From: Methanomassiliicoccales archaeon
GTDB lineage: Archaea; Thermoplasmatota; Thermoplasmata; Methanomassiliicoccales; JACIVX01
Reading direction: 5' to 3'
Assembly: GCA_029907465.1 (NCBI GenBank)
Contig: JARYLV010000010.1
Coordinates: 1-54,371, forward strand
DNA length: 54,371 bases
The position numbers were made by a program, and so were the translations under genes. Positions 33,366-39,299 of the stretch are shown piece by piece (positions within the stretch are counted from its first letter, which is position 1; every line of letters begins with the position of its first letter). A model generated the notes under the pieces. It saw nothing but the letters and a program-made list of their open reading frames with translations. It was not told where the DNA came from and made no database searches.

Positions 33366-34970
33366 TCAAAGTCGTTTCGCCATATACACGCCATCCCGCA
33401 CATATCCCATGGAGGAATAGTATCGCCTCGCACCGACGCCACTTGTGACCTTTATCTCCCTGCAACCTCTTTCGCGCGCGATCCGCTCCGCCTCAGCGAT
33501 CAGCTGTCTGCCGAACCCCCGGTGTTGCCATGATTCTCCACTCTGACCGATTGGCAACATCTGGCCAAAGACCTTTAACTCTCTTAAATGCGCGGTGTCA
33601 TTCAAAGGCGAATCATTGATCCTTAACCTTGCATAGCCAACAAGTGCGTTTTGATCTGGTAACTCATAGGAAATGAAATACTCGTCACCGTCGGAGGCCC
33701 GGTATTTGATGATCTTGAGTTCAGCATTTAATTGTTCGTTGAGGTCGACGCCGAGTAACCCCACTTCTCTGCACCTAATGCACTGACAGCTCGCTCCGTC
33801 CTCCTTCATTTTTTCTCTGACGAGCTCCCTCAGGTGTCCCTTGTCGACCCCTGCCTCAATCAACGGCACAGGTATATCCCTTTGAATCCTCTGGATACGG
33901 ACATACGGAGGCACAATTTTTTTCATCTCGGCGATGACTTCCACGGCTTCTTCAGTCGAATAAGGCCTGTATTTCCCGCCCTTCCAGAGATCATAGAGTG
34001 GCGTCCCTTTAACTACAAGCGTCGGGTAGATCTTCAACATGTCTGGCCTGAATCTTTCATCTTCGAACATCTTCGAAAAACTCGCGAGGTCTTTTTCTCT
34101 CGATGAGCCGGGTAGGCCAGGCATAATATGGTAGCAGACTTTTAGCCCCAATTCCTTTGCGATGCGCGTCGCCTTGACGACCTCCGACACGCCGTGCCCC
34201 CGTTTCACCACGCTTAGTATCTCGTCGTCAAGTATTTGCACGCCAAACTCAACTCTCGTGGCGCCCAGATACATCGAGAACTCTGCTTTCTCTCGATCGA
34301 ACGAATCGGGCCTTGTCTCGACGGTCATTCCGATACATCGGTGATCGGCCGTTTCATTGATCTCGTGCGCCTCTTCGAGCGACTCGCTGCTTTTTGAATT
34401 CAGGGCATCAAAGCATCCCTTCACAAATGATAGCTGGTATTCCCTTGGACGTGTTGTAAATGTCCCACCCATGATGATCAGATCTATCTTGTCGGTAGGG
34501 TGGCCGATGGCCTCGAGCTGTGCGATCCTGCTCCTCACCTGTCGAAATGCATCATACTCATTGGCCGAGGCCCTTCTCGCCGCTGGTTCCTTTCCAGTGT
34601 AGGATTGCGGGGATCCGTATTCAACCCCGCCAGGGCAATAGATACATTTACCATGCGGACACGGCGCAGGCGAAGTCATTACAGCGATGACCGCCACCCC
34701 GCTCAGAGTTCTCGTGGGCTTCCTTCGCAATAACCTTAAGACGAGTGGATACTCCTCCTCATCTGCAACTGCTAAAGTCTCTGAGTTAGGCGGTATTTCG
34801 CTGAGGTTGAACTGTTTTGCCAGTGTAATCTTCGCGGTCTGGAGACTCTTCCTATCTTTTATCGCTCCTCCGACGATCTGCCTGATCAAGGCTTCATGGT
34901 AACTCCAACGATTCCGATCAACCTGGTTTGTTTTGGAGTGTTCCCGATCAATGGAAAAGTGGTTCATCAT
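33366..34970 (-). CDS. elp3: Elp3-family tRNA uridine(34) acetyltransferase (radical SAM plus GNAT)
   Basis: A 534-residue protein that modifies the wobble uridine of tRNA with a carboxymethyl group. The radical SAM domain has CPHGKCIYC (C104, C109, C112 bind the 4Fe-4S cluster) with PGGVEYGSPQSYTGKEPAA, then GGTFTTRPREYQ and VETRPDSFDREKA. CQCIRCREVG (about residues 388-397) adds the family zinc site. The C-terminal GNAT domain has SGESWQHRGFGRQLIAEAE with the acetyl-CoA loop and GVGARRYYSSMGY. Archaeal Elp3 works alone. It is third in a run after a winged-helix and an Sm-like gene, 10 bases downstream of the latter. Confidence 0.95.
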   Translation of the reverse strand: MMNHFSIDREHSKTNQVDRNRWSYHEALIRQIVGGAIKDRKSLQTAKITLAKQFNLSEIPPNSETLAVADEEEYPLVLRLLRRKPTRTLSGVAVIAVMTSPAPCPHGKCIYCPGGVEYGSPQSYTGKEPAARRASANEYDAFRQVRSRIAQLEAIGHPTDKIDLIIMGGTFTTRPREYQLSFVKGCFDALNSKSSESLEEAHEINETADHRCIGMTVETRPDSFDREKAEFSMYLGATRVEFGVQILDDEILSVVKRGHGVSEVVKATRIAKELGLKVCYHIMPGLPGSSREKDLASFSKMFEDERFRPDMLKIYPTLVVKGTPLYDLWKGGKYRPYSTEEAVEVIAEMKKIVPPYVRIQRIQRDIPVPLIEAGVDKGHLRELVREKMKEDGASCQCIRCREVGLLGVDLNEQLNAELKIIKYRASDGDEYFISYELPDQNALVGYARLRINDSPLNDTAHLRELKVFGQMLPIGQSGESWQHRGFGRQLIAEAERIARERGCREIKVTSGVGARRYYSSMGYVRDGVYMAKRL

Positions 34971-34980
34971 TTGATCGCAT

Positions 34981-35265
34981 TTACCTGAAATAAACTTCTC
35001 TCTCCTCGCTTTCCTTTTTCTCCTCTTCTTTTTTCAAATGCAACAGATCGATCGAAAGAACGGCGATGCATGGGATCAATCTGATTCTCCCCGCTTCTTC
35101 TCCATGGGAGTCGTCTAGTTCAATACTGATAGCCGTATCATGTCCGAAAGCAACGTACCCCTTGAACTCACCAGTTGTCAATAATGGCTGCCCCTCGCCA
35201 CCTTTGCTGATCACCCTGCACTTCGAGCCCTTTGTGAGATTTGGTTCGAGATCTTTGCCAGTCAT
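34981..35265 (-). CDS. Small beta-rich protein, possibly Sm/SH3-like
   Basis: A 94-residue protein starting MTGKDLEPNLTKGSKCRVIS. The core (LLTTGEFKGYVAFGHDTAIS, IRLIPCIAVLSIDLLHL) predicts a five-strand barrel of Sm or SH3 type, followed by a charged tail of alternating K and E. GAGGAGG lies about 9 bases before the ATG, which immediately follows the stop of the winged-helix gene. It is tightly placed between that regulator and elp3, so a role in RNA binding or in control of tRNA modification is possible but inferred. No named family is recognised with certainty. Confidence 0.6.
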   Translation of the reverse strand: MTGKDLEPNLTKGSKCRVISKGGEGQPLLTTGEFKGYVAFGHDTAISIELDDSHGEEAGRIRLIPCIAVLSIDLLHLKKEEEKKESEEREVYFR

Positions 35266-35718
35266 CTACCTTGCCTCCTCGATTAATTTTTGGAGATGAT
35301 CAACCGTTTTGCGGTAATTATCCATCGCCATCTGCACATTTGCTTCGGTGAAGCTCCATGCCTTGCGGAGATCACCGTATCGAATGCGGTATCCCTTCTT
35401 TGTTTGCCCATCGCGCATAGTCTCCACTTCTTCGATCAAATCCATCGATTTCAGTTTGTTGAGATGTCTGTAAACTGTTGGCTTCGTTGTTTTGAGATAG
35501 ATTGCCAACTCTTCGACAAGCCAGACACGTTTCATATTTTTTATGAAGCACTCTACGAAGAGCTTGTAGGGAATCCCCTCTGTCGAATTTCCCCTCTTCT
35601 TTTTCGGATCAAAATTCATTGGCAGGTATCCTATCTGCTTGAGGAACTCAGTAGCGACTTCCTCGACGTCATTAATTGGTGTCAGGGGTGTGTTGCTTAC
35701 CACGTTGAGCTGGAACAT
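35266..35718 (-). CDS. Winged-helix transcriptional regulator
   Basis: A 150-residue protein. The winged-helix domain is at about residues 60-115: VWLVEELAIYLKTTKPTVYR is the helix-turn-helix with recognition helix KPTVYRHLNKLKSMDLIEE and the wing follows (ETMRDGQTKKGYRIRYG). A C-terminal helix (MAMDNYRKTVDHLQKLIEEA) probably makes a dimer. It resembles ArsR/MarR-like archaeal regulators. It is the first gene of the regulator, Sm-like, elp3 run and ends in TAG one base before the next start. Target unknown; autoregulation is likely for such a position. Confidence 0.75.
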   Translation of the reverse strand: MFQLNVVSNTPLTPINDVEEVATEFLKQIGYLPMNFDPKKKRGNSTEGIPYKLFVECFIKNMKRVWLVEELAIYLKTTKPTVYRHLNKLKSMDLIEEVETMRDGQTKKGYRIRYGDLRKAWSFTEANVQMAMDNYRKTVDHLQKLIEEAR

Positions 35719-36059: not shown

Positions 36060-37145
36060 ATGAAGCGATCGGCAATTTATGCAATTATTGTAGCTATTAT
36101 AGCAATTCTCGCCGTTGTGGCCGCCGCAGTTTTGTACAAGCCAGCAGCGGAGGAAAAAGTGATATACTGGAGTGCCGTCGCACCGGCGAACCAGCGTGCT
36201 GCATTGCAGACCAACACCGTCCAAGGAGCTGTCAGCTGGGAACCTTATGTTTCGGATTCCTTAGTGGACGGTACCGCCAACGTCATCGCATGGTCAAACG
36301 ACATATGGCCACACCATCCATGCTGTGTCATCGCTGTGAAAACGAGCTTTGCCGAATCAGATGCCGCGAAGAACAACGATCTTGTTGCAAGAGTTATTAG
36401 AGCGCACATCGATGCGACGAACTGGATCATCGAAACGATCGAAAACGGTGGCGAGAATTACACGAAACTTTTGGAGATTGGAGCAGAGTTCAGTAACAGG
36501 AATACAACGGTCGTAGAGTCTGCGATTGAGCACATCGAATTCAACTACGAGATTACGAAACCGGTGAAGAAATGGTTTGAAAACTATACTTCAATGTTTG
36601 CCGACTTAGGACAGATCACTTCCCTCAGCGGATACGCGAATGTGACAGCTTTTGTCGATTCCATTGTCAACACGAGCTACTTGGAAAAAGCGATGACTGT
36701 CGAGCCGAGCGACACGATTCTCGGTACCGTGAGATTGGGTTACCTGATGGGCGACCTCCATCAGTTCGCGAGAGTTGTTGCGGCGAATGAAACGTTGTGG
36801 GGCGGAAAGACGCTATTTGAGAAGTATGGTGTGGAGATTCAATCGCCCCTACCCTATGCAAACGGTGCATTCTTGATGGACGGTTTCGCTCGAGATGAAA
36901 TCGATATGGGTTACCTTGGAAGCCCGCCAGCGCTCTTAAAACGCATCAACGCGAACATCCCGATAGAAATCGTTTCATTAGTCAACAGCGGCGGGTCGGC
37001 GATCGTCGCTAAAGCAGGGATCACGAGCTTCAGCGAGTTGAATGGCCAGACGGTTGCAACACCGGGACCTGGTTCAATACAGCATCTGTTGCTGATGTTC
37101 TACGCAAACGAGCACGGTTACAAGCTCAAACTCAAGGGGACGTAA
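36060..37145 (+). CDS. Circularly permuted NMT1/TauA-type ABC substrate-binding protein
   Basis: A 361-residue membrane-anchored binding protein (signal anchor at residues 5-25). Residues 33-212 match the second half of the nitrate/sulfonate/taurine binding-protein fold: APANQRAAL, AVSWEPYVSDSL, SNDIWPHHPCCVIAV and the usual last helix VDSIVNTSYLEKAM. Residues 223-361 match the first half: VRLGYLMGDLHQFARVV, FARDEIDMGYLGSPPALL, SGGSAIVAK, FSELNGQTVATPGPGSIQHL. The order is therefore reversed relative to the family. It is one uninterrupted frame with its own promoter and a TAA stop 39 bases before the permease. Expected outside the membrane, delivering ligand to the permease. Ligand unknown. 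Confidence 0.85.
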   Translation: MKRSAIYAIIVAIIAILAVVAAAVLYKPAAEEKVIYWSAVAPANQRAALQTNTVQGAVSWEPYVSDSLVDGTANVIAWSNDIWPHHPCCVIAVKTSFAESDAAKNNDLVARVIRAHIDATNWIIETIENGGENYTKLLEIGAEFSNRNTTVVESAIEHIEFNYEITKPVKKWFENYTSMFADLGQITSLSGYANVTAFVDSIVNTSYLEKAMTVEPSDTILGTVRLGYLMGDLHQFARVVAANETLWGGKTLFEKYGVEIQSPLPYANGAFLMDGFARDEIDMGYLGSPPALLKRINANIPIEIVSLVNSGGSAIVAKAGITSFSELNGQTVATPGPGSIQHLLLMFYANEHGYKLKLKGT

Positions 37146-37184: not shown

Positions 37185-38012
37185 ATGCAGATGATTTCAC
37201 CTTGGGAAAGGCTCAAGAAGAAGTGGAGGAAGATCTCCGAAACTGGAACCCTCCGGATTTTATGGATCACACCCCTTTCCCTGGCTGGATTCCTGGTCGT
37301 GTGGTGGCTCTTTTCAATAGTTATCAACCGCGCATATTTGCCCGGGCCCTATGAAGTCTTTCAGGCGTTCGTCGATTCATTTCTTACGCCAGCGCCGTCC
37401 CTTGGCATCACGATGGACGACAACATCGCATCGAGCCTCCAGCGTTTTCTACTCGGTTTTGTCCTTGCATTTTGTGTCGCAGTCCCACTGGGTCTGATGA
37501 TGGGATTTTTCAGGACGGCAGAAACCGTCGCAAAGCCAGTGATCGAGGTTTTCAGACCCATACCCCCGATTGCGTGGGTACCAGTATTTCTCCTCATCTT
37601 CAAGCTCTTTTGGGGCCCCGTCATGGTCATCTTCATTGGCGTCTTCTTCCCTCTTCTCTCAAATGTCATCTTCGGTGTGAAATCGGTTGATCCAACCCTC
37701 ATAGATGCGGCGCGTACACTCGGTGCCGATCGGATAAGACTCTTCACAAAGGTGATTTTCCCATCAACCGTTCCGTTCCTCATGACCGGCATCACAATCG
37801 GTCTGGGTATTGGTTGGATGTGTATAGTAGCTGCTGAAATGATTGGCGCCGTGGGAGGCGGAGTAGGTTACTATATTTACTTCATGGAGCAACTCGGTAA
37901 ATATGAATACATGTATGCCGGAATGGTCGTCATTGCAATTCTGGGGATCTTGACGGTGGGCATTAGCAGGTATATTGAGCAGTACTTGTCGCGATTGATG
38001 GGGATGAAATGA
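37185..38012 (+). CDS. ABC transporter permease, nitrate/sulfonate/bicarbonate type
   Basis: A 275-residue membrane protein with six predicted helices, a normal length for SsuC/TauC-like permeases. The EAA loop that contacts the ATPase is [20 protein letters not shown] at about residues 172-191, followed by [35 protein letters not shown] is also a family hallmark. It is the middle gene of the operon and overlaps the ATPase gene by ATGA. It would form the membrane channel for the ligand brought by the permuted binding protein. Confidence 0.92.
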
Positions 38013-38776
38013 CGCTGACCATTGAGAAACTTGAAAAGAGATTTCCGAAGGACGATGAGGAACTCGTCGCGATCACCGATTTCACCCTCGAGGTTAAGGA
38101 CCACGAATTTGTATGCGTTCTTGGCCCTTCTGGCTGCGGAAAGACCACGCTCCTTCGCATCGTGGCCGGACTTGAATCAAAGACCTCTGGCTCCGTGAAA
38201 CTTGATGGTGTCGAGATTACTGGGCCAGGTTCCGATCGCGGCATGGTGTTTCAAGAGTTCGCTCTGTTTCCCTGGCGAACGGTCAGGAAAAACATTGAAT
38301 TTGGACTTGAGATTAGAAAAGTACCAAAAGAAAAGCGAAGGGCGATTTCCGATAAATACATCGAGCTCGTCGGTCTCAAAGGTTTTGAGGACTCACATCC
38401 ATACGAGCTCTCCGGTGGAATGAAACAGCGGGTGGGGATCGCACGCGCGCTAGCAAATGATCCGAAAATTCTCCTGATGGATGAACCGTTCGGCGCACTT
38501 GATGCGCAGACACGAAATATGATGCAAAAGGAGCTCCTGCGGATATGGGCCGAAACAAAGAAAACCGTGCTTTTCGTGACGCATTCAGTCGATGAGGCGG
38601 TTTATTTAGCTGATCGTATAGTAGTCATGACTGCACGGCCAGGGACGATCAAAGAGATTTTCGAAATCACGATGCCTCGTCCTAGAGATAGAGCGAGCGT
38701 CGAATTTGCGTCACTCAGAAAACACATTTTGGCGGAGCTGGAAAGAGAGGTTGTCAGGCCGACACCATCGGCCTAA
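38009..38776 (+). CDS. ABC transporter ATP-binding protein, nitrate/sulfonate/bicarbonate type
   Basis: A 255-residue ATPase that powers the importer. It has the Walker [14 protein letters not shown]-loop [13 protein letters not shown], signature [17 protein letters not shown], Walker [18 protein letters not shown] and switch histidine in [36 protein letters not shown] is typical of SsuB/TauB/NrtD-like proteins. It overlaps the permease by ATGA and ends 2 bases from the convergent HTH gene. All motifs are intact, so the transporter is likely functional despite the unusual binding protein. Confidence 0.95.
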
Positions 38777-38777
38777 T

Positions 38778-39299
38778 TCAATACACTTTTTTCGCCGCCA
38801 GTTCGATCGCCCTTAACACGGAGTCGTGCGGAATCACGACCGTCACTGGCACCGATAGAATTTTTTCGACTGTTGGAGCAACGATAGGGGCGCAGACGAC
38901 CGCGAGGGCACCATCCTTCTCAGCCCTCACAGCAGAAATGATCGCTTCCTCCATAGTCGCCGCAGGGTATTCTTTAACTCTGATGTTCTTACCGCCGATC
39001 TTAATCGTGCGTTCCTCAATTTTCTCAAGGACTGGCCTACTTGCAATGACAGCGATGAAATTGCCTGTCGGATGTTTCTCAAGTTTGCGTACTGCCAGAA
39101 TGATATTCCTCACTGTCCGCAGATTTGGCTCTCTCTTATCCTGCATGATTTTGTAAATTGTGCTCATCGAAAGTCCCGTCTTTGCACAGAACTCAGAAAC
39201 ACTCATCTGGAGGTCTTCTTCGAGTACCTTTCTTAACGCCTCTCTAAATCCGCCTTCGCCCCGAAGTATTCCCGCGATCAACTCGTTTTCAAGGGCCAT
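38778..39299 (-). CDS. HTH (XRE-type) regulator with C-terminal sensor-like domain
   Basis: A 173-residue protein. Residues 30-75 form a Cro/CI-type helix-turn-helix: MSVSEFCAKTGLSMSTIYKI followed by MQDKREPNLRTVRNIILAV. Residues 80-173 form an alpha/beta domain (FIAVIASRPVLEKIEERTIK, YPAATMEEAIISAVRAEKDG, VPVTVVIPHDSVLRAIELA) that looks like a small ligand- or phosphate-sensing fold. It converges with the ABC operon two bases away and lies 9 bases downstream of the thioredoxin-reductase-like gene on the same strand, so it may be co-transcribed with that redox operon. It may control either neighbour. Confidence 0.75.
   Translation of the reverse strand: MALENELIAGILRGEGGFREALRKVLEEDLQMSVSEFCAKTGLSMSTIYKIMQDKREPNLRTVRNIILAVRKLEKHPTGNFIAVIASRPVLEKIEERTIKIGGKNIRVKEYPAATMEEAIISAVRAEKDGALAVVCAPIVAPTVEKILSVPVTVVIPHDSVLRAIELAAKKVY

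Follow-up and report, generated by a model that had tools for sequence, protein, structure and literature searches.

The window, a stretch of 54,371 nucleotides from a Methanomassiliicoccales archaeon, contains at positions 36060-37145 of the forward strand an open reading frame (ATG start, TAA stop, 361 amino acids) that is uninterrupted, as the original prediction had stated. A TATA-like stretch and a GGTGA ribosome site were noted by eye on its 5' side. The product is a substrate-binding protein (SBP) of the NMT1/TauA/NrtA type in which the second half of the canonical chain (segment B, residues 33-212) comes ahead of the first (segment A, residues 220-361, divided into A1 and A2). Segment B holds a WEPY motif and an invariant HPCC motif, and closes with the normal last helices. 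The linker that joins the old C-terminus to the old N-terminus is assigned neither helix nor strand in the predicted model. At the position of the predicted N-terminal anchor, two relatives from the family of the window genome (L005 and L006) have a lipobox, AAAGC. The window genome contains a single gene of this permuted kind; it has one other, distant NMT1-type match (L169, G000:C19:2301-2735).

Table 1. Segments of the binding-protein gene and neighbouring genes in the window
Feature	Position	Strand	Basis
Elp3-like radical SAM/acetyltransferase protein (by eye), at the left edge of the conserved slot	33366..34970	-	ORF; synteny
Small conserved protein of the slot	34981..35265	-	tblastn synteny
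Winged-helix-like regulator (by eye), neighbour conserved across the order	35266..35718	-	tblastn synteny
N-terminal signal anchor, residues 1-32	36060..36155	+	Predicted helix 3-25 (model secondary structure)
Segment B, residues 33-212, canonical second half	36156..36695	+	NMT1_2 positions 151-239; segment model scan; alignment of 50 relatives
Linker, residues 213-219, old C-terminus to old N-terminus	36696..36716	+	Gap between B and A1
Segment A1, residues 220-295, canonical N-terminus, GDLHQ to YLGSPP	36717..36944	+	Segment model scan; NMT1 16-116 match begins inside
Segment A2, residues 298-361, hinge strand plus initial part of second lobe, end ..KLKGT	36951..37142	+	Segment model scan
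Cognate ABC permease, BPD_transp_1 (TauC/SsuC/NtrB type)	37185..38012	+	Pfam 74.8 bits; PRK10160 TauC 7.8e-41
Cognate ABC ATPase (SaoA/NrtCD/TauB type)	38009..38776	+	Pfam ABC_tran 114.8 bits; SaoA 9e-84, below curated cut-off
XRE-like regulator (by eye), right side of the slot	38778..39299	-	ORF; synteny

The permease and the ATPase are intact, as had been claimed, according to their Pfam and NCBIfam-type matches and to synteny. The genes lie in a slot with the order Elp3, small protein (DUF), winged-helix regulator (HTH), SBP, permease, ATPase, XRE and TrxR.

The rotated order of the binding protein was apparent from its profile matches. Positions 151-239 of Pfam NMT1_2 match residues 32-124, and positions 16-116 of NMT1 match residues 253-353, that is, in reversed order. 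The NMT1_2 match (PF13379) scores 70.4 bits, above the curated cut-off of 24.7. The reversal is also found in the matches to the NCBIfam models TIGR01728 and TIGR01729. With SsuA_fam TIGR01728 (aliphatic sulfonate binding), the score of 88.1 bits is below the cut-off of 163.5, because a linear model is unable to score a permuted chain fully. When a 50-row profile of the relatives was compared with solved structures, residues 246-351 were aligned with the start of TauA (6ssy, chain positions 15-119), and residues 33-127 with the middle of NrtA/CmpA (about 184-284). The natively canonical orthologue L055 is collinear with TauA 37-236 (E 1e-12).

A doubling test was performed with a profile made exclusively from natively canonical proteins (archaeal orthologues and bacterial homologues, five of each). 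Stripped of its anchor, the window chain scored 163 bits, over one half. Written twice, it scored 335 bits in one alignment spanning model positions 8-328. No gain upon doubling was observed for the natively canonical controls (L053-L056, L093-L096 and L099). Both a chance match and a simple two-domain protein are ruled out by this result. The chain does not follow the canonical A-B order but is arranged B-A1-A2. Joining end to start thus restores one full-length alignment to the canonical profile, as anticipated, and the doubling test, the reversed profile order and the segment scan concur with the proposal that residues 33-212 are the second half and precede the first. The break was expected in the loop between HGYKLKLKG and the strand before APANQRAAL; the chain indeed ends in ..HGYKLKLKGT and starts with EEKVIYWSAVAPANQRAAL.

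The structure of the window protein was predicted by AlphaFold with the 50-row alignment (mean pLDDT 95.3, pTM 0.88). The model starts at the strand before APANQRAAL and reaches the last helices (195-211), which are followed by the normal first strand VRLGYL (222-227), so that the predicted strands and helices come in the expected permuted order. The chain would be expected to fold into the usual two-lobed clamp of type II binding proteins, with its new ends located in the loop that connects the A2 helix to the first B strand. In a sequential Foldseek comparison of the model with the PDB, the matches to binding proteins were no more than partial, the best being with OpuAC (TM 0.34/0.45, rmsd 9.6). 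Low scores are expected for a permuted chain but are no proof of it, and this comparison neither confirms nor refutes the permutation. By analogy with the family, the anchored clamp would close its two lobes on the ligand and hand it to the adjoining permease and ATPase.

The order in close relatives, which had been proposed as a check, was examined. The full-length permuted order is present in all six genomes of the window's family, the other five proteins being 48-91% identical to that of the window, and it recurs across the order, in other families of the class and in other classes of the phylum. A public metagenome-assembled genome record, Methanomassiliicoccales archaeon (L007), contains the permuted protein with 91% identity. 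Between this close relative and the window, dN is 0.040 and dS 0.98, with the two halves alike; both halves are under purifying selection.

An assembly or binning artefact, in which a collapsed tandem of two canonical genes would mimic the half-swap, has a negligible probability. The window genome is a draft of 44 contigs, which could favour such an error, but the identical order is found in the five other genomes of the family (48-91%), in L007 and in dozens more, some of them single-contig, and purifying selection acts on either half. The artefact is ruled out by these independent genomes, which also exclude that a canonical N-terminal half was missed upstream. The natural circular permutation put forward originally is therefore supported by the conserved order, the doubling test, the confident predicted fold, the selection and the intact permease and ATPase.

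Comparison of the relatives revealed four circular orders, which were assigned by scanning with segment models for B, A1 and A2, by reading of the sequences, and from the location of the chain ends on the rotated model. Type I is the canonical order A1-A2-B, found in L053, L054, L055, L056 and L099, as well as in every bacterial homologue examined. Type II, B-A1-A2, comprises the window protein and about 60 others, with chain ends at model position 139. Type III, A2-B-A1, is that of nearly all members of family f5, with chain ends at position 81. Type IV, B2-A1-A2-B1, occurs in seven genomes from two genera of f5, with chain ends at position 180; the B1 strand and the WEP motif sit at the extreme C-terminus (..GIIWEPQFQRVIQES before the stop). 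The AlphaFold model of a type IV protein is likewise of reasonable confidence, with a pLDDT of 86.1 and a pTM of 0.83. A seemingly permuted bacterial homologue from Thermomicrobium roseum, where tblastn covered 93% of the permuted query, was rejected, the protein itself being in canonical order.

The conserved gene slot, whole or in large part, surrounds binding proteins of type I (L053, L054, L055), type II (window, L166, L167) and type III (L061, L062), and a tandem form of type II (L058) described below. That types I, II and III share the slot indicates that they are one gene whose circular order varies. At most of the f5 loci examined, the binding protein, permease and ATPase are kept and the Elp3/HTH/XRE/TrxR neighbourhood is lost.

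Some loci have additional peculiarities. In two genomes, a permuted B-A binding protein is fused to an extension of 450-500 residues, which by eye consists of fibronectin-III-like repeats and a C-terminal membrane helix in one (L060 2169-4880, G126:C31) and of PKD/right-handed-helix-like repeats in the other (L059, G127:C70); each of these genomes also has a copy of normal length. At L072 (4823-6040, G015), an additional secreted-protein-like gene separates the binding protein, which forms a long branch, from the permease.

Permutation by duplication predicts functional tandem-fused intermediates and multiple cut points (PMC3320104). Tandem fusions were found in the relatives. In G144 (L021/L058), B-A-B-A is encoded in one frame of 709 residues, and in four f5 genomes (L081, L085, L088, L089) the unit A2-B-A1 is present twice, in frame, in about 755 residues. 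The first unit of the 709-residue fusion has diverged (319 versus 433 bits) and has LEPY and HPGS in place of WEPY and HPCC, both of which suggest that binding of the same ligand has been lost. Every new order can be read as an internal stretch of the preceding order's tandem: A1-A2-B and A2-B-A1 are both contained in B-A-B-A, and B2-A1-A2-B1 in the type III tandem. For this reason, each step is consistent with a proposed mechanism in which the mature domain would have been duplicated in frame and in tandem, the outer parts then being lost. The in-frame fusions support the tandem-duplication route that had been proposed from the window. In a tree of 94 SBP rows, none of the tandem clades is placed as the direct sister of a newly permuted clade. 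The fusions thus show that such an intermediate is viable, although these particular genes need not be ancestral and could be by-products instead of actual intermediates.

Fission and fusion, by which once-separate halves would have been rejoined in different orders in different lineages, is another known route to permutation (PMC3320104), but is improbable here. In none of the genomes looked at were the halves found as separate intact genes. The only split case (L057 2587-3682, G009) consists of two frames beside unresolved bases and looks like a frameshift or an assembly gap. Tandem fusions are seen instead, and four cut points would require several different fissions.

The number of changes of order was examined with trees. 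The SBP tree of 94 rows, based on rotated sequences with L161 left out, needs six changes of order. Types III and IV together have a single origin, adjoining the type II binding protein from G007 (support 99); type IV is divided into two groups by type III rows. A 64-row SBP tree needs seven changes. Holding type IV together was rejected (p 8e-5), as was holding all of type I together (p 0.005), both p values being somewhat flattering as the constrained groups were defined once the first tree was known. The permease and ATPase, which are not permuted, provide an independent tree. It also needs seven changes, splits type IV again, and places canonical L053/L054 beside type II L022/L023 (support 82), L023 being of the same genus. 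The two kinds of tree agree on six to seven changes of order.

With canonical bacterial outgroups, the trees suggest a first step from type I to type II, then II to III to IV, together with changes from II back to I. The permutation would be ancient in this archaeal lineage: A1-A2-B would have become B-A1-A2, then A2-B-A1 in one family, from which B2-A1-A2-B1 would have arisen on two occasions; at least one or two reversions to A1-A2-B would also have occurred. Repeated gains of type II from type I, instead of returns to the canonical order, are possible because L055, L056 and L099 are weakly placed.

A small number of permutations combined with horizontal replacement by differently ordered genes would spare the locus from having been re-permuted many times. 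Such a scenario could account for the placement of some binding proteins in disagreement with their family labels (f6 g30 and f1 are each found in separate groups). It is unlikely, as an order-level clade with support of 100 unites canonical L053-L055 with permuted rows, the gene slot is identical, and the permease and ATPase tree repeats the pattern; moreover, transfer within the group still requires each order to have arisen.

The window gene is very probably an ancient circular permutant of the SBP of a TauA/SsuA/NrtA-type importer, and one step in a single-locus series generated by tandem duplication. With somewhat less confidence, it appears likely that tandem fusions allowed one orthologous gene to be re-permuted at its own locus on at least five to six occasions, giving four orders, returns to the canonical one, and the fourth order twice.

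Among characterized proteins, TauA, SsuA, NrtA and CmpA (type II SBPs, cluster F; NMT1_2 and NMT1) are homologous to the window protein over its whole chain once rotated and have the same permease and ATPase partners. The window protein differs from them by its B-A1-A2 order instead of A1-A2-B, its invariant HPCC and, putatively, the location of its anchor on the other lobe. Permuted SBPs are already known in cluster B and among betaine binders. TpMglB-2 of Treponema pallidum (Tp0684, 'Type Ic') is likewise a tethered ABC binding protein with a natural circular permutation, which occurs in several lineages (PMC4990184). It is, however, a Type I, cluster B sugar binder, for which one permuted order was described, and it is unrelated in sequence to the window protein, which gave matches of TauA/NrtA type only in Pfam and in the PDB profile search. 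The glycine-betaine binders OpuAC and ProX are related by a circular permutation that was detected structurally among type II SBPs (CPSARST, PMC2395249), and the best Foldseek match of the window model was to OpuAC. That pair is very diverged (<24% identity) and has another function, no series of orders at one locus being reported for it (PMC2395249); neither protein was matched by sequence in the PDB search with the 50-row profile. Permutation by duplication has been described for saposin/swaposin and DNA methyltransferases (PMC3320104), whereas here four orders and tandem fusions are present in one orthologous group, three of the orders in one slot. What is unusual is this repeated re-permutation into four orders with tandem fusions alongside. 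In the literature searched, most subscription papers being out of reach, no permuted protein of NMT1/TauA type was found, nor any SBP with several circular orders.

As B begins in the second lobe according to the homology with TauA, the membrane tether would be shifted from the first lobe to the second, where the anchor of the window protein is now presumed to be. A possible link between permutation and tethering was proposed by the authors of the TpMglB-2 study (PMC4990184). Although their orders differ, the types observed have either a lipobox or a hydrophobic anchor at the N-terminus, so that the position of the tether is best regarded as permissive and not as a demonstrated cause. The point of attachment of the tether on the clamp may perhaps have shaped the permutations.

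Regarding the substrate, TauA is the best solved-structure match for both the permuted and the canonical profiles. Taurine differs from coenzyme M by an NH2 in place of an SH. In TauA, the sulfonate is contacted by Gln30, Gly61, Gly79 and Thr132, and the amine by Glu106, Thr132 and Asp205 (PMC6906117). Equivalent residues were counted along the alignments, with an inferred numbering offset of 21. On this basis, Gly61 and Gly79 correspond to the invariant G269 and G287 of the window protein, and Asp205 to the second cysteine of HPCC, with no apparent conservation of Gln30 and Glu106 in the alignments. HPCC (residues 86-89, positions 36315-36326) is invariant in 50 permuted relatives and present in the canonical archaeal orthologues; the Thermomicrobium and Variovorax homologues have HACC. 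On balance, the ligand is probably a small sulfonate, although this assignment is weak, as the transporter and the HPCC-type motif are also present in relatives without methyl-CoM reductase.

Specific import of coenzyme M, with the cysteine pair at the position of TauA Asp205 recognizing the thiol, would be compatible with the permutation history preferred above and is a tentative candidate, with about one chance in three. It would accord with TauA as the best structural match and with the alignment of the amine-contacting Asp205 with a cysteine. The window genome has methyl-CoM reductase (MCR) and gave no match to ComD, which is above cut-off in 16 of the order's 147 genomes. In a review, ssuABC is given as the transporter by which methanogens import coenzyme M (PMC10658910). 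Against this specificity, the gene is kept in relatives without MCR as well as in genomes with ComD, and the cysteine pair also occurs in distant bacterial homologues. Coenzyme M as the sole substrate is unsupported by this distribution across MCR-less and ComD-bearing genomes.

Known natural circular permutants usually consist of one pair of distant proteins. With four orders, tandem fusions and close canonical controls, a single family makes it possible to test directly by which steps permutation by duplication proceeds, where the chain is cut and what the fitness effects are; if re-permutation in place is true, this family would be a natural laboratory of the process. The circular permutation also accounts for the split matches and low scores of these transporters with linear family models. 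Finally, the transporter may bear on how methanogens without coenzyme M synthesis obtain that cofactor.
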